Assembly: GCF_003122085.1 (NCBI RefSeq)
Contig: NZ_QEXV01000001.1
Coordinates: 310,001 to 374,000, forward strand
Origin: Marinicauda salina
GTDB taxonomy: Bacteria > Pseudomonadota > Alphaproteobacteria > Caulobacterales > Maricaulaceae
DNA: 64,000 nt
Reading direction: 5' to 3'
Positions within the stretch are counted from its first letter, which is position 1; every line of letters begins with the position of its first letter. Below, one piece after another: positions 43,220 through 51,793 of this stretch. A program made the translations under genes and the position numbers. The notes beneath the pieces are model-generated. The model worked only from the letters and a program-made list of their open reading frames with translations, did not search any database and had not been told where the DNA came from.

Positions 43220-45760
43220 TCAGAGCTTGCGCTCGACCTCCTCGACCTCGAAGCACTCGATCTGGTCGCCCTTCTGGATGTCCTGGTAGTTGACGAAGGC
43301 CATGCCGCACTCGGTGCCGGCGCGGACCTCGGGCACCTCGTCCTTGAAGCGCTTGAGCGTGGCCAGCTCGCCTTCGTGGATGACCGTGTCGTCGCGCAGC
43401 AGGCGCACGCCGCAGCCGCGCTTGACGACGCCGTCGGTGACCCGGCAGCCGGCGACCTTGCCGACCTTGGACACGCTGAACACCTCGAGGACCTCGGCGT
43501 AGCCGATGAAGGTCTCGCGCTTCTCCGGCGCCAGCAGGCCTTCGAGCGTGGCCTTCACGTCGTCGATGACGTCGTAGATCACCGAGTAGTAGCGGATCTC
43601 GACGCCTTCGGTCTCGGCCAGCTCGCGGGCCTGCTTGTTGGCGCGGACATTGAACGCGAAGATCGGCGCGCCGGACGACGACGCCAGCAGCACGTCGGAT
43701 TCCGACACGCCGCCGGGCGCGGCGTGGATGACGCGCGCGCGGACTTCCTCGTTGCCGAGCTTTTCGAGCGCGGTCTGGATCGCCTCGGCCGAACCCTGCA
43801 CGTCGGCCTTCACGACCAGCGGCATCTCCTGGAGTTCGCTCTCCTGGAGCTTGGCCATCATCTGCTCGAGCGAGGCGCCGCCGGTGGTCGGAGCCGCCGA
43901 CTCGCGGCGCTTGCGCTCGCGATACTCGACGATCTCGCGGGCGCGGCCCTCGTTCTCGACCACGGCGAACAGCTCGCCGGGTTCGGGCGCGCCGTCGAGA
44001 CCGAGGATCTCGGCGGGCAGCGCCGGGCCGGCCTCCTTCATCTGCTGGCCGCGCTCGTTGATCAGCGCGCGCACCTTGCCCCAGTGGGCGCCGGCGACGA
44101 CGATGTCGCCGCGCTTGAGCGTGCCGCGCTTGACCAGAAGCGTGGCGACCGGGCCGCGGCCCTTGTCGACCTGGGATTCGATGATCACGCCCTCGGCCGA
44201 GCGGTCCGGGTTGGCCTTGAGCTCCAGCAGCTCGGCCTGCAGCGTGATCGCCTCGGCGAGCTCGTCGAGCCCGGTCTTCTCCGTGGCCGAGACGCTGACC
44301 GCCTGCACCTCGCCGCCCATCGATTCGACGATGATCTCGTGCTGGAGCAGTTCCTGGAGCACGCGGTCGGGATTGGAGTCCGGCTTGTCGATCTTGTTGA
44401 CCGCCACGATGATCGGCACCTCGGCCGCCTTGGCGTGATTGATGGCCTCGATGGTCTGGGGCATCACGCCGTCGTCGGCGGCGACGACGAGGATCACGAT
44501 GTCGGTCGCCTGGGCGCCGCGCGAACGCATCGACGAGAAGGCCGCGTGGCCCGGCGTGTCCAGGAAGGTGATCCGGTCGCCGGACTTCAGCTGCACCTGA
44601 TAGGCGCCGATGTGCTGGGTGATGCCGCCGGCCTCGCCCGCGGCGACGTCGGTCGCGCGCAACGCGTCGAGCAGCGACGTCTTGCCGTGGTCGACATGGC
44701 CCATGACCGTGACGACCGGCGGACGCGGCTTCTTGGTCTCCTCGGCGTCGTCCTCGGAGATCAGGCCCTCCTCGACATCGGCCTCGGAGACGCGCTTCAC
44801 CTTGTGGCCGAACTCCTCGACGATCAGCTCGGCGTCGTCGGCCTCGAGCACGTCGTTGACGCGGACCATCTGGCCCTGCGTCATCAGGAATTTCACCACG
44901 TCGGCGGCGCGCTCGGCCATCCGGTTGGCGAGCTCCTGGATGGTGATGTGCTCGGGAATGACCACCTCGCGGGCGACCTTCTCGCGGTCGCCGCCGCCCT
45001 GCGCGCGGCGCTGGCGCTCGCGTTCGCGGGCGCGGCGCATCGAGGCGAGCGAGCGCTGACGGTCCTCGTCGTCCTCGACCAGGTTCTGGATGGTGAGCTT
45101 GCCCTGGCGGCGGCGCTGGTCCTTCGTGCGCGACGGCGCGGGCTTTTCGGGCGCGGCCTTCTTCGACTTGACGCGCCCGCCCATCTCCTCGAGCGCGGAC
45201 TTCGCCTGGTCGCGCTCCTTGTCCTTCTCGGGCTTGCGGGCGCGCTTGGCGGCGTCCTCGTCGGGCGGCGGCGCGGCGGCCTCGGCCGCGGCGGCCTCCT
45301 CTTCGGCGCGACGGCGGGCCTCTTCCTCCTCGCGCTCGCGGCGCTCGGCCTCTTCGCGGGCCTTCTGCTCCTCGAGCTTGCGCTTCTCCTCTTCGGCGCG
45401 CTGGCGGCGCTCCTCCTCCTCGGCCTTGCGCTCGGCGTCGCGCTCGGCGGCCTCGGAGCGGGCGCGCTGGATCGCCTTCTGGCGCCGCAGCAGCTCTTCC
45501 TCGGACAGGCCGAGCTGCTTGGCCTTGGCGGCCAGGGCGGCGCGCGCCTTCTCCTTGTCGGAGGCCGGCGCGGCGGCTTTCTCATCCTTGGCAGCGGGCG
45601 CGTCCTTGCCCGCGCCGGAGGCGGCGCGCTTGCGCTTCTTCTCGACGACGACGGCCTTCGACCGGCCGCGCGAGAAGCTTTGCTGCACGGTGCCGGACTT
45701 CCGTCCGCCGAGGGAGAGGGGCTTGCGGCCCGAGGAGTTGCGTTCGTCAGCGTCGCTCAT
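43220..45760 (-). CDS. infB: Translation initiation factor IF-2
   Basis: GTPase that brings initiator tRNA to the 30S subunit. 846 aa. The N-terminal half (~1-330) is a long low-complexity coil of Glu/Arg/Ala ([18 protein letters not shown]) typical of bacterial IF-2. The G domain has [16 protein letters not shown] (G1), DTPGHAAF (G3) and NKIDKPD (G4). C-terminal domains end in [16 protein letters not shown]. An N-terminal IF-2 motif ([14 protein letters not shown]) starts the protein. Preceded by ylxR with ~147 bp between. Confidence 0.97.
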
Positions 45761-45907: not shown

Positions 45908-46591
45908 TCAACCGTCCTGTGCGGAATCGCGCGGCTCCGCCGCGCTCCCGCCTGTTTCACTCTCCGGCCCGTCGCCGCGCGGGTCGATCGCGCGGAAACC
46001 CGCCAGCTTGGCCATCGTCTCGCCGAAGGCGCGCGCCTCTCCGCCCGGCGCGAGGGCGAGATGCATCAGCGCATCCCGTCCGAGCGCCGCGCCGAGCGCC
46101 TCCGAGGAGAAGCACCCGGCCGTCGGGATCGCGCCCCGCTTCCGCGCGAGGCGATCCAGCTTGCCGCGGCCGTCGGCGGCCGCGTCGACCGCCTCGATCC
46201 GCCAGGCCGGCGGCGGGTCCGCCTTCAGGGCGAGCCGCACCGCATCATACCCCGTCGCCAGCCTTCCCGCGCGCCGCGCCAGTCCCAGCAGGGACAGCGC
46301 GCGCGCCTCGAGCTGGCGCTCGAAAGCGTCGGCGAGGTCGGCCGGCGCCTCCACCGGACGCGAGAACGCCCGGTTGAAGAGCCGCTTGCGCACCGCCGTC
46401 TCGACGCTCGCCCGGTCGGCCTTCACCCAGGCGCCGCGCCCGGGCAGCTTCGCGGCGAGGTCGGGCGTGACCACGCCCTCGGGCGACAGGCCGACGCGCA
46501 ACAGCGCCTCGTCGCCCAGCGCCTCGCCGCTCACCAGGCAGCGCCGCATGCGCGTGCGCCCGGCCCGGCCGGAGCCTGCGCCCCGGCTCAC
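45908..46591 (-). CDS. ylxR: YlxR/DUF448 RNA-binding protein with L7Ae-like C-terminus
   Basis: 227 aa from GTG 46591, which overlaps the nusA stop as GTGA. The N-terminal YlxR fold has RMRRCLVSGEAL, LPGRGAWVKADRASVETAVRKRLFNRAF, the conserved GRGAW motif. The C-terminal part (LLGLARRAGRLATGYDAVRLALK) resembles the ribosomal L7Ae/L30e-like segment fused to YlxR in alphaproteobacteria. Member of the nusA-infB operon; YlxR proteins are nucleoid- or RNA-binding regulators of unclear precise role. Confidence 0.9.
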   Translation of the reverse strand: MSRGAGSGRAGRTRMRRCLVSGEALGDEALLRVGLSPEGVVTPDLAAKLPGRGAWVKADRASVETAVRKRLFNRAFSRPVEAPADLADAFERQLEARALSLLGLARRAGRLATGYDAVRLALKADPPPAWRIEAVDAAADGRGKLDRLARKRGAIPTAGCFSSEALGAALGRDALMHLALAPGGEARAFGETMAKLAGFRAIDPRGDGPESETGGSAAEPRDSAQDG

Positions 46592-48390
46592 CGCGCCTCG
46601 TCGTCCTCCTCGCCGGCGTCCTCCGATGCGGTCTCGGCGGACGCGGAGTCCTCGTCCTCGTCGTCGAGCAGCGCGCCGAGATCGACGCCGAGACGCTCGG
46701 CCTCCGCCTCCAGGTCCTCGATATCGAGATCGGAGACGTCGGGCTCGGCCTCGGCGGCGGCCTCCCCGGCGGCTTCCTCGCCGCCCTCTTCGGACGCTTC
46801 CTCCAGATCGGCCTCCTCGGCCTCCGGTTCAAGGTCCTCTTCCGAAATCCAGCCCGCCGCGACGCGCGCGCGCATGATCAGCGCCTCGGCGTCTTCCGGC
46901 GACATGTTGAACTCGTCGAGAATGCCCGGCTCGCGCACGCGTTCGCCGTCGCGCGTCTCGTACCAGCCGCGCAGATCGTCGGGCACCAGGCCGGCCAGAT
47001 CCTCGACGGTCTTGACGTCGTTCTCGCCGAACTTCACCGCCATGGGCAGCTCCACGCCCTCGACCTCGAGGACGGCGTCCTCGACGCCGAGCTCCTTGCG
47101 CTTGGCGTCCTGCTCGGCGGCGCGCTTTTCGAGGAATTCCTTGGCGCGGGTCTGGATCTCCTGGGCGGTGTCGTCGTCGAAGCCCTCGATCACGGCGATC
47201 TCGTCGAGCTCGACGAAGGCGATCTCCTCGATGTCGGAGAAGCCCTCGGTGGCGAGCAGCTGGGCGATGACCTCGTCGACGTCGAGCGCGTCCATGAAGA
47301 GCTGGGTGCGCTCGGCGAACTCCTTCTGACGGCGCTCGGACTCCTCTTCCTCGGTGAGGATGTCGATCGACCAGCCGGTGAGCTGGCTGGCCAGGCGCAC
47401 GTTCTGGCCGCGCCGGCCGATCGCCAGCGACAGCTGGTCGTCGGGCACGACGACCTCGATGCGCTCGGCCTCCTCGTCGAGGACGACCTTGGTCACCTCG
47501 GCGGGCTGCAGCGCGTTGACGATGAAGGTCGCCGGGTCCGGGCTCCACGGGATGATGTCGATCTTCTCGCCGGCGAGCTCGTTGACGACGGCCTGCACCC
47601 GCGAGCCGCGCATGCCCACGCAGGCGCCGACCGGGTCGATCGAGGAATCGTTGGAGATCACCGCGATCTTGGCCCGGCTGCCCGGATCCCGCGCGACGCG
47701 CGGGATCTCGATGATGCCCTCGTAGACCTCGGGCACCTCCTGGGCGAACAGGGCGGCCATGAAGTCGGGATGGGCGCGCGACAGGAAGATCTGCGGGCCG
47801 CGCACTTCCGGGCGGACGTCGTAGATATAGGCGCGCACGCGGTCGCCGTTCTGGAAGTTCTCGCGCGGGATGCCGTCATTGCGCCGGATCACCGCCTCGG
47901 CCTTGCCGAGATCGACGATGACGTTGCCGTACTCGACGCGCTTGACGATGCCGTTGACGACCTCGCCGACGCGGTCCTTGTACTCCTCGAACTGGCGCTC
48001 GCGCTCGGCCTCGCGGACCTTCTGCGTGATCACCTGCTTGGCGGTCTGGGAGGCGACCCGGCCGAACTCGATCGGCGGCAGCTCCTCCTCGAAGACCGTG
48101 CCGATCTCGGCGTTCTTGTCGATCTTCTTCGCCTCGTCGAGCGACATCTCCTGGGAGTCGTTCTCGACCTCCTCAACGACCGTGGTGCGCCGGGTCAGGC
48201 GCATCTCGCCGGTCTGGGGATCGATGTCGCACTTGATGTCCAGCTCGGCGCCGTAGCGCGAGCGCGCCGCCTTCTGGATCGCCTCCTCGATCGCCTCGAG
48301 CACGATGGCTTCGTCGATGAGCTTCTCCTGCGCGACCGCCTTGGCGATCTGCAGAAGCTCCAGCTTGTTGGCGCTGACCCCGATGGCCAT
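46588..48390 (-). CDS. nusA: Transcription termination/antitermination factor NusA
   Basis: Binds RNA polymerase and modulates pausing, termination and antitermination. 600 aa. N-terminal domain ([34 protein letters not shown]), S1 domain (~135-200, [18 protein letters not shown]), KH1/KH2 ([46 protein letters not shown]). A long acidic C-terminal extension past residue ~500 has helix-hairpin-helix-like repeats, as in other alphaproteobacteria. Second gene after rimP. NusA is a plausible sensor for the leader terminator upstream of rimP. Confidence 0.97.
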
Positions 48391-48417
48391 GATCTCAATC
48401 CTTGCAGTTGGTCCGTA

Positions 48418-48954
48418 TCAGTCCTGTCCGGCGTCCCCGGAAGCCCGCGCGTCGGCGCGGCCCTTGAGGCTCGCCTCCATCAGCGCGTCGGTGAGGACGA
48501 GCTTGGCGTCGTCGATCCAGGCGAAAGGCAGCACCGCGGTCTCGTCCTCGCCCGCGAGATCGATGAGCACGTTGTCGTCCTCGGTCCCGGCGAGCACGCC
48601 GCGAAAACGCTTGCGGCCCTCGACCATGCGGCCGAGCTCCAGCTTCGCCTCGAATCCCTCCCAGCGGGCGAAATGCGCCAGCTCGGTGAGCGGCCGGTCG
48701 ATGCCCGGCGACGACACCTCGAGAGTGAACTCCCCCGCGATCGGATCGGCCTCCTCGAGCACCTCGTCGAGCGCGCGCGACAGCCGCTCGCAATCGTCGA
48801 CCTGCATGGTCCCGTCATGGCGCTCGGCCATGATCTGGACCGTCTTGCGCTTGCCGCCCATGACGCGCGCGCGCACGATCTCGAGCCCCAGCGCCTCGGC
48901 CAGGGGTTCGGCGAGATCCAGGATCTCCTGATCCAGCGCGGTCTTGGTCTTCAC
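48418..48954 (-). CDS. rimP: Ribosome maturation factor RimP
   Basis: 30S assembly factor. 178 aa from GTG 48954, with GAGG 6 nt upstream; a TTG at 48972 lies closer to the terminator T-run and has a weaker signal. TALDQEILDLAEPLAEALGLEIV, the second-domain LEVSSPGIDRPLTELAHFARWEG and GVLAGTEDDNVLIDL are RimP landmarks. First gene of rimP-nusA-ylxR-infB. Its ribosome-binding site can pair with the 3' arm of the terminator just upstream (see leader entry). Confidence 0.94.
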   Translation of the reverse strand: MKTKTALDQEILDLAEPLAEALGLEIVRARVMGGKRKTVQIMAERHDGTMQVDDCERLSRALDEVLEEADPIAGEFTLEVSSPGIDRPLTELAHFARWEGFEAKLELGRMVEGRKRFRGVLAGTEDDNVLIDLAGEDETAVLPFAWIDDAKLVLTDALMEASLKGRADARASGDAGQD

Positions 48955-48973
48955 GCGGGGCCTCGAGAGCAAC

Positions 48974-49004
48974 GAAAAAGGCGGCCCCGTCTCCGGAGCC
49001 GCCC
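48974..49004 (-). terminator. Intrinsic terminator/attenuator in the rimP leader
   Basis: On the minus strand GGCGGCTCC (49003-48995), loop GGAGAC-like, GGGGCCGCC (48988-48980) and then TTTTTC. It ends ~20 nt before the rimP start and lies downstream of the promoter at 49042-49070, so it is inside the rimP transcript. It also ends transcripts arriving from trmB. The 3'-arm bases 48989-48983 (CGGGGCC) are complementary to 48962-48956 (GGCCCCG) at the rimP ribosome-binding site, giving an alternative fold. Confidence 0.75.
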
Positions 49005-49041
49005 GATGACGCCATCCGGCGTATCGAACTTGTTGGCCGCT

Positions 49042-49070
49042 TATATACGCCTTCGGCGCGCCCCGCGCAA
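49042..49070 (-). promoter_or_regulatory. Promoter of the rimP-nusA-infB operon
   Basis: Minus strand TTGCGC (49070-49065) and TATATA (49047-49042) with a 17-bp spacer, the best sigma-70-like pair in this spacer. Start of transcription expected near 49035, giving a leader of ~80 nt before rimP. A small hairpin ACGCC/GGCGT (49022-49009) precedes the terminator hairpin. Confidence 0.6.
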
Positions 49071-49096
49071 TGGCGGCGGTGTCCGGCGCGCACGGC

Positions 49097-49777
49097 TCAT
49101 CGCTTCTCGAACTCGAAAAAGACCGGCGCGATGTCGCCGAGATGCTTGGACTCGTAGCGCGTTGTGACGTGGTCGGCGGGCGGGTCGCGCCAGTCGCCGG
49201 CCGACCGCGCCGTCCAGGCCAGACTCGGCGTCTCCATGAGGATCGGCAGCGCCCAGTCGGCGTAGGCGCGCACGTCGGTGGCCAGCCTCAGCCGCCCGCC
49301 CGGCTTGAGGATGCGCGCCAGCTCGAACGCCGTGTCAGGCTGGACGAAGCGCCGCTTGGCGTGGCGCGTCTTCGGCCACGGGTCGGGAAACAGCAGGTAG
49401 ACGCGGTCGAAGGCCGCATCGGGCATGGCCTCGATCTCGTCGCGCGCGTCGGCGCGCTTCACCCGGACATTCTCCAGCGCCTTCTCCTCGATCCCGGCGA
49501 GCGCCTTGGCGACGCCGTTGAGGAAGGGCTCGATCCCGAGAAACCCGGTGCGCGGATTCGCCTCCGCCTGCGCGATCAGGTGTTCGGCCGCGCCGAACCC
49601 GATCTCCAGCGCGTGCGCGTCGAGGCCCGGCAGCAGGGCGGCGGGATCGACGCCGCCGGCGTCGGGCCAGTCGAGCCGGGGCAGGAGCGCGTCGACCAGG
49701 CGCTGCTGGCGCGGCGACAGCCTGTGGCCCTGGGCGCGGCCATAGAGGCGGCGATGCGGCGGACGCGTCTCGGTCAT
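49097..49777 (-). CDS. trmB: tRNA (guanine(46)-N7)-methyltransferase TrmB
   Basis: SAM-dependent methylation of G46 in the tRNA variable loop. 226 aa from ATG 49777 ([20 protein letters not shown]). The SAM-binding [16 protein letters not shown], then [15 protein letters not shown], the family motif [19 protein letters not shown] and TRYESKHL at the C-terminus are present. Follows metK on the same strand after ~286 bp that include a terminator and a dispersed repeat, so it probably has its own promoter. Confidence 0.96.
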
Positions 49778-49867
49778 GGGCCGGGGGTCTACAGGATTTT
49801 GCGCGCAGGTCGAGTGGAAGGCGGTTCGGCCGGCGGTCGCTGTCGCTGTCGCGGCGCAGCCCACTTC

Positions 49868-49961
49868 GTTTTCCTGACGAAAGTCAGGACCCAGGGATCG
49901 AAGATCGCGAGAGCCGTCGCTCGTCCTCTCCCGGGCCCCAGCTTGCGCTGGGGAAACGCGA
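49868..49961. repeat. Dispersed palindromic repeat, copy 2
   Basis: CGTTTTCCTGACGAAAGTCA and GGACCCAG (49868-49895), then GGGCCCCAGCTTGCGCTGGG and GAAACGCG (49934-49961). Same two blocks, order and orientation as 6305-6388, with a different spacer. Lies between metK and trmB. Confidence 0.75.
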
Positions 49962-50002
49962 TCGGGCCGGCCTCAACCCATGGAGCCGACGCCACCCCGC
50001 TG

Positions 50003-50045
50003 AAACGAAAAAGGCCGGGGCGCCTGAAACGCCCCGGCCCTTTCG
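50003..50045 (-). terminator. Terminator after metK
   Basis: Perfect 10-bp stem GGCCGGGGCG (50013-50022) and CGCCCCGGCC (50030-50039), followed on the minus strand by TTTTTCG. 24 bp past the metK stop. Confidence 0.9.
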
Positions 50046-50063
50046 ATGCGGATCGCGATCCGT

Positions 50064-51247
<1,184 letters not shown>

Positions 51248-51251
<4 letters not shown>

Positions 51252-51271
51252 ATAAAGCTTCCTTTATATGG
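51248..51271 (-). promoter_or_regulatory. metK: Hairpin holding the metK ribosome-binding site and start codon
   Basis: mRNA-sense arms CCATATAAAG (51271-51262) and CTTTATATGG (51257-51248) pair perfectly around the loop GAAG. AAGGAAG, the likely ribosome-binding site, spans the 5' arm and loop; the metK ATG (51251-51249) is in the 3' arm. Folding would hide both. Alternatively TATAAA within it could act as a -10 element and the palindrome as a DNA operator. Confidence 0.6.
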
Positions 51272-51355
51272 CCGCGCATAAACCCTATTGCGCCGCGGAA
51301 AGCAAGGGGGCGCCCCGCGGAGAAATGCGAATCGCTGCTGAAAAGGGTGCGACGG

Positions 51356-51793
51356 TCAGACTTCCTCGGCGTCGCCGGCGGCGGCTTCGGCCTCTTCGGC
51401 GGCCAGCGTGCGCACCAGGTCGAGGATGCGCCGGCGCACCTTGGAGTCGCGTATCTTCGCGAACGCCTGGGCGAGCGCGACGCCGTCTGCGGACTGGATG
51501 AAGTCGTCCACGATCGGCGTCTGGTCGCCTTCGGAGAATCCGGCCTGGCCGATCGTCTCGGCGACGCCGTCATAGAAAAACGACACCGGCACGTCGAGCA
51601 CGCGGGCGAGCATCCACAACCGCCCCGCGCCGATGCGGTTGGCGCCGCGTTCGTATTTCTGAACCTGCTGGAATGTCACGCCGAGTTCCTCGCCGAGCTT
51701 CTCCTGGCTCATATTGAGCAGCTGGCGGCGCAAGCGCACGCGCGAACCGACATGACGGTCCACCGCGGTCGGGCCTCTCGGATTCGTGCTCAT
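51356..51793 (-). CDS. XRE-family helix-turn-helix regulator next to metK
   Basis: 145 aa from ATG 51793 (MSTNPRGPTAVDRHVGSRV). The HTH_3 domain at ~15-70 reads RVRLRRQLLNMSQEKLGEELGV, then TFQQVQKYERGANRIGAGRLW. The C-terminal ~70 residues are helical with an Ala/Glu-rich tail. Proteins of this form sit between lnt and metK in many alphaproteobacteria (PhrR-like); targets are not established. Overlapping purine-rich signals (AAGGAG, AAGGAT) precede the ATG. Confidence 0.88.
   Translation of the reverse strand: MSTNPRGPTAVDRHVGSRVRLRRQLLNMSQEKLGEELGVTFQQVQKYERGANRIGAGRLWMLARVLDVPVSFFYDGVAETIGQAGFSEGDQTPIVDDFIQSADGVALAQAFAKIRDSKVRRRILDLVRTLAAEEAEAAAGDAEEV

Follow-up and report, generated by a model that had tools for sequence, protein, structure and literature searches.

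NusA, IF-2 and RimP work where transcription meets translation, and in many bacteria a terminator in the leader is believed to meter the operon that carries their genes. The 64,000-nt stretch of Marinicauda salina DNA analysed here (the window) raises the question of whether the short segment between trmB and rimP is such a device and, if so, which factor would set it. This leader is very short, with promoter-like boxes, one hairpin and a terminator packed into ~100 nt, and none of the regions read from one order of Alphaproteobacteria lacks it. It probably meters the rimP-nusA-infB genes. The fuller proposal, in which the region is a dedicated attenuator of the rimP-nusA-ylxR-infB operon and NusA feedback explains its setting, is one that we regard as fairly probable. 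The anatomy of the leader, its conserved position and its covariation are direct observations. It offers a small, defined RNA in which to ask which factor sets readthrough.

Anatomy of the rimP leader

All elements of the locus lie on the minus strand, where ~120 nt accommodate the promoter-like boxes, a hairpin designated P1, an intrinsic terminator with a U5 tail, a GAGG and the GTG start of rimP. Read directly from the sequence, a −35-like TTGCGC (49065–49070), missed by a strict consensus scan, is separated by a 17-nt spacer from a TATATA −10 box (49042–49047), placing a putative transcription start near 49035. P1 (49004–49026), identified by folding and covariation, comprises 9 bp interrupted by a single-base bulge and is capped by a GGAU loop at 49017–49014. 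In the predicted fold it abuts, with zero linker, the intrinsic terminator stem-loop (48980–49003), which was recognized by terminator scan and folding alike, has a stem energy of −23.6 kcal/mol, and is followed by the short U-tract TTTTTC (48974–48979). The segment 49035–48940 as a whole has a minimum free energy of −40.9 kcal/mol (z = −1.87) and folds into these two adjacent hairpins. GAGG (48961–48964) is by position a putative rimP ribosome-binding site. An earlier note on this DNA had located the boxes, the terminator, TTTTTC, GAGG, the GTG and a 7-nt complement taken up below, and all of these coordinates were confirmed on the minus strand; the small hairpin it had seen at 49022–49009 exists, but is larger than claimed, being the upper part of P1.

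Domain searches give the gene order metK, trmB, rimP, nusA, a YlxR-type gene and infB. The upstream neighbor trmB (49097–49864; Methyltransf_4) ends at 49097, ahead of the promoter. Downstream, rimP (48418–48954; RimP_N and RimP C-terminal domains) opens with its GTG at 48954–48952, in agreement with the starts of its relatives, and is followed by nusA (46588–48390; NusA_N, S1 and KH domains), the ylxR-type gene (45908–46591; YlxR domain) and infB, encoding IF-2 (43220–45760; IF-2 domains). The YlxR-type protein is 227 residues long, with its YlxR domain at residues 16–89 and no further Pfam match at E ≤ 0.001. It is a possible RNA-binding candidate that could act on the leader.

Conservation of the leader and covariation of its hairpins

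Taken as a single sequence, the region is unremarkable, and it is comparison with relatives that singles it out. A plain sigma-70 consensus scan of 46400–51400 found no promoter, and the same interval holds three terminator-like sites against 2.1 expected. rimP was detected in 97 of 99 family genomes and 293 of 299 genomes of the order, and 113 rimP upstream regions were assembled as an order set: 73 from the 99 genomes of family f1, and 40 from 233 other genomes with a rimP match, taken from the better-scoring matches in families f3 (15), f4 (9) and f5 (16). A terminator at or below −10 kcal/mol is present in all 113 of these loci, compared with 3, 4 and 3 of 113 after shuffling in two-base blocks. 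At −13 kcal/mol the count is still 111 (shuffles 0, 4 and 2), against 4 of 330 other sequence windows drawn from 33 loci. For the best promoter-like box pair the mean score is 9.90, versus 7.58 in shuffles, and this pair reaches the shuffles' 95th percentile in 80 of the 113 loci and falls below it in 33. Its −10 box starts with TA in 112 loci, a preference that the scoring itself favors, and positions 1–3 of its −35-like box are T, T and G in 63, 101 and 92 of the 113 relatives, respectively. The distance from −10 box to stem is tightly held, with a median of 37 nt (interquartile range 36–39), and leaves room for scarcely more than P1. The proposal in the earlier note of a promoter-terminator leader able to attenuate rimP-nusA-infB is supported by conservation across the order loci read, which extends to loci with no upstream trmB seen.

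The covariation of the two stems was assessed in an alignment of the leaders of 37 close relatives, in which the two-stem structure leaves 92.3% of cells paired. Two of five measures are not clearly above shuffles, namely the number of pairs changed on both sides (reached by 90 of 500 shuffles) and of further pair types (469 of 500), and the remaining measures are inflated by kinship among the 37 relatives. Cells changed on both sides number 97, compared with 36.8 in shuffles (none of 500 reaches this value) and at most 14 in slid controls, and the covariation score is 0.439 versus 0.231. Among the terminator pairs, 4 of 10 show changes on both sides. The outer pairs of P1 are partly misaligned, and at one of them as many as 17 of the 37 cells fail to pair. 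Because both stems covary in these relatives, both hairpins look to be under selection. For P1, this support rests on covariation rather than on folding energy, which is unremarkable in the 36 nt ahead of the terminator stem (z is −0.3 for the window and averages −0.75 over the 113 loci, 15 of which have p ≤ 0.05).

A covariance model built from the 37 leaders singles out the same element. In the genome of M. salina it scores 78.7 bits at the window, with the next match at 29.5 bits. When 98 family genomes were searched, 59 of them gave a match at E ≤ 0.001, and 38 matches reach at least 39 bits. By coordinates, 37 of these 38 stand no more than 200 nt upstream of rimP and on its strand; the 38th stops 92 nt short of the end of its contig, and those 92 nt contain a rimP-like start. 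Since 35 of the 38 strong matches are sequences used in building the model, the search demonstrates uniqueness more than independent discovery. Matches below 34 bits are a mixture of rimP-adjacent and other places. The other matches in the M. salina genome score at most 29.5 bits, and among seven of them the four that were viewed as alignments share mainly the terminator. The second-best of them (L117, C3:244684–244735) has GGUUCGA followed by a near-identical terminator stem and seems to be a terminator that retains hardly any of P1.

The loop of P1 shows a conservation pattern of its own. A CARGA loop occurs in 19 of 36 other f1 loci, a count that keeps three rows unpaired in the register used (L045, L049 and L075) and leaves 17 loci without CARGA, while stem pairs 4 and 5 appear variously as AT, TA, CG and GC. 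In f3, 7 of 15 loci carry the loop pattern, 6 of them paired. Among all 256 tetramers, GGAT is the most enriched within the 36 nt ahead of the terminator, being present in 57 of 113 loci where 12.0 would be expected (49 of 73 in f1, 6 of 15 in f3, 0 of 9 in f4 and 2 of 16 in f5). A GGA-containing P1 loop is found in about half of the loci, and P1 is also kept in relatives with GGATAG, GGATTG or GGACG. A scan of named genomes with the P1 pattern returned 84 stretches, of which 23 have the pattern no more than 200 nt before rimP. The 21 of these with a listed title belong to Maricaulis, Oceanicaulis, Glycocaulis, a Maricaulaceae bacterium or unclassified Alphaproteobacteria. The other 61 stretches come from unrelated bacteria, show no rimP match within the stretch, and are taken for chance occurrences in GC-rich genomes.

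Proposed attenuation, likely NusA feedback and competing explanations

In the proposed mechanism, a promoter between trmB and rimP would start a transcript near 49035, whose first 60 nt would fold into P1 and then directly into the intrinsic terminator. A fraction of polymerases would halt near 48975, producing a ~60-nt two-hairpin RNA, and the remainder would read into rimP. NusA, itself made from the operon, would raise termination and thereby close a negative feedback loop, as in Bacillus subtilis. NusA is the best candidate for raising termination, and feedback is likely by analogy with B. subtilis and Escherichia coli. The terminator stem is so strong that NusA dependence is not obvious from the sequence. 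P1, most simply, would be a 5′ structure that is bound by the regulating factor, or one that pauses polymerase for it. A self-contained antiterminator finds no indication in the order set or in a wider class set (described below): pairing between the upstream RNA and the 5′ arm of the terminator is 0.556 versus 0.533 in shuffles across the 113 order loci, and 0.562 versus 0.599 across 35 class loci.

GGAU (49017–49014) or CAGGA loops on covarying stems look like a protein-binding hairpin. CsrA/Rsm proteins bind sites with a GGA in a short hairpin loop, which the P1 loop resembles. CsrA-type regulation of P1 was nevertheless rejected, as none of 31 genomes, that of M. salina included, has a CsrA match (PF02599, E ≤ 0.001), whereas the same profile finds its matches in Escherichia coli, B. 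subtilis and Thermotoga maritima in a control set of 14 genomes. Tentatively, P1 with its conserved GGA-type loop on a freely covarying stem could be what one particular RNA-binding regulator recognizes, perhaps a product of the operon such as NusA or the YlxR-type protein. Such recognition, if true, would turn the leader into a feedback device of its own, in which protein and RNA together control factors of transcription and translation in bacteria that have no detectable CsrA.

Several other readings of the locus can be weighed against NusA-fed attenuation. A factor other than NusA might operate the same attenuator: an RNA-binding protein, whether of the YlxR type, RimP or a hairpin-melting cold-shock protein, would read the P1 loop and set readthrough. 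The conservation of the loop, as CARGA in 19 of the 36 f1 loci tested, while the stem varies, and the excess of GGAT ahead of the terminator, speak in its favor. The M. salina genome moreover has three cold-shock-domain matches over the cut-off, and the E. coli operon is described as cold-induced (PMC6511841). This reading is nonetheless doubtful. GGAT is absent from 24 of 73 f1, 9 of 15 f3, 9 of 9 f4 and 14 of 16 f5 loci and is therefore not required for the leader as such, its count in the class set is 9 of 35 against 4.4 expected, and binding of the YlxR-type protein to the P1 loop is a guess from operon membership. In a second alternative, the ~60-nt terminated RNA would itself act in trans as a small RNA. 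Its compact build of two hairpins, the promoter-like boxes in front of it and a single strong copy in the genome are compatible with this. We consider it very unlikely, as all 38 strong family matches stand before rimP, the RNA has little unpaired sequence, and no Rfam family is matched at its gathering threshold, the whole window included. A weak full-length match to sX12, a Xanthomonas sRNA, at 48974–49040 (23 bits versus 106 needed, E = 0.016) was taken as chance. The hairpin might also be a mere transcription terminator of trmB, which ends closely upstream at 49097 on the same strand. With the query used, the TrmB of the window, a same-strand trmB was found within 400 nt upstream in 40 of 73 f1, 3 of 16 f5, 0 of 15 f3 and 0 of 9 f4 loci, and although a diverged trmB end could escape such a search, the terminator is present in all 113 loci, those with no detected trmB among them. 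Conserved promoter-like boxes sit between trmB and the terminator, and at locus L244 806 nt of intervening sequence (562–1369) with an opposite-strand frame of 223 codons separate trmB from an intact rimP leader that is the same as that of L016. The leader, on this sequence comparison, travels with rimP, and the possibility raised in the earlier note that the terminator is kept only as the end of trmB does not hold; a mere trmB terminator is highly improbable.

Two further explanations bring translation into play. In one, a leader peptide initiated at the AUG of GGAUG would couple ribosomes to termination. GGATG is indeed present in 45 of 113 loci, with the frame open past the U-tract in 43 of the 45, and in the window the AUG frame (49015 onward, minus strand) has no stop within the terminator or before it has passed the start of rimP. 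The frame relative to the terminator, however, varies (33, 8 and 4 of 45), as does that relative to rimP (22, 16 and 7 of 45). The frame ends are scattered, relatives with GGATAG, GGATTG or GGACG still retain P1, and no Shine-Dalgarno sequence is visible by eye in the short stretch before GGAUG in the window. A leader peptide is accordingly scarcely credible. In the other, which the earlier note had put forward as a choice between the terminator and a fold that hides the rimP start, the 3′ arm of the terminator would pair with the rimP ribosome-binding site as a second, translational point of control. The perfect 7-nt complementarity between CGGGGCC (48989–48983) and GGCCCCG (48962–48956) is real, and at least 7 nt is matched with P ~0.04 when the letters of the start region of the window are shuffled. 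Relatives do not share it. The window is the only one of the 113 loci with at least 7 complementary nucleotides, and exchanging start regions within families yields 0.77 such loci on average, while the terminator is conserved; the mean longest match is 3.51 versus 3.47 with swapped start regions, and the start region of the window matches the arms of 5 of 112 other loci equally well. Energetically, the forced fold is 9.5 kcal/mol worse (−38.7 versus −48.2 kcal/mol), with a pairing probability of ~1.5 × 10⁻⁵. Furthermore, the distance from stem to start ranges from 6 to 130 nt, some starts being approximate, and the terminator emerges before the start region during transcription. The complementarity is read as a composition effect of GC-rich sequence, and sequestration of the ribosome-binding site was rejected on grounds of conservation and energy; a second control point of this kind has next to no likelihood.

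Relation to known rimP-nusA-infB leaders

Leader terminators upstream of the same genes have precedents. The rimP-leader attenuator is an intrinsic terminator in the 5′ UTR of rimP-nusA-infB, for which NusA was proposed as the regulator and best candidate, and for which no larger conserved element is reported (Naville & Gautheret 2010, PMC2965389). The window shares with it an intrinsic terminator close to the rimP start of a rimP-nusA-infB operon with no visible antiterminator, and the distance from terminator to start, 24 nt in the window by the stem end of our script and 6–130 nt across the 113 loci, falls within the 4–130 nt of the published leader; starts are approximate in part of the order set and in the class set. 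It departs from it in having the extra covarying hairpin P1, and in the GGGc…gCCC motif, since the stem in the window has a basal GGGC without the GCCC. In B. subtilis, according to a review, NusA controls its own synthesis by stimulating termination in the 5′ leader (PMC12288461), and Naville & Gautheret give the length of that nusA-operon leader as ~180 nt (PMC2965389). Terminator-based attenuation is alike in the two cases; the distance to the terminator is ~60 nt here rather than ~180 nt, and the effect of NusA here is proposed by analogy. In E. coli, terminators t1 and t2 precede rimP, transcripts rise when NusA termination is reduced, and NusA controls its own operon (PMC6511841). The metY-nusA-infB leader resembles the present one in its terminators upstream of rimP, but has several promoters and a tRNA gene; M. 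salina has a single, compact pair of promoter-like boxes there, and the window is free of tRNA genes.

The rimP family of Rfam (RF01770, gathering threshold 47 bits) has no match at E ≤ 10 in the M. salina genome. Among the 14 control genomes, 12 match at least weakly and 1 exceeds the threshold, from which it follows that the family model is narrow. The motif itself, GGGC…GCCC, occurs within the stem at 17 of 113 order loci, nine of them among the 16 stems of f5. A class set of 40 loci was taken from 245 class genomes with a rimP match, one of the 40 being the sole locus of f2, a family of the same order. In this set, GGGC…GCCC followed by a T-run is found in 26 of 40 upstream regions by the stricter regular expression (shuffles give 0.6 on average and at most 4), and in 28 by a looser one with 7.0 expected by chance. 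A lax stem finder calls a stem in 35 of the 40, some of them weak, down to −2.5 kcal/mol, and the motif lies inside 27 of these 35. A stricter finder retains 30 of 40 at −9 kcal/mol (block shuffles 1, 2 and 3) and 26 at −12 kcal/mol. Given the class-wide occurrence of the motif with its T-run and its presence in 9 of 16 f5 stems, the leaders of the order look like a diverged branch of the rimP-leader. The attenuator therefore represents a divergent version of a known type, and P1 is the part for which no description was found, nor any paper on such a leader in Alphaproteobacteria, in a literature search covering titles and abstract openings, with subscription journals and supplements outside its scope. 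Across the class loci (L124–L163), many families of Alphaproteobacteria have GUGGGC…GCCCAC-type terminators ahead of rimP, and inspection by eye often shows another hairpin preceding them.
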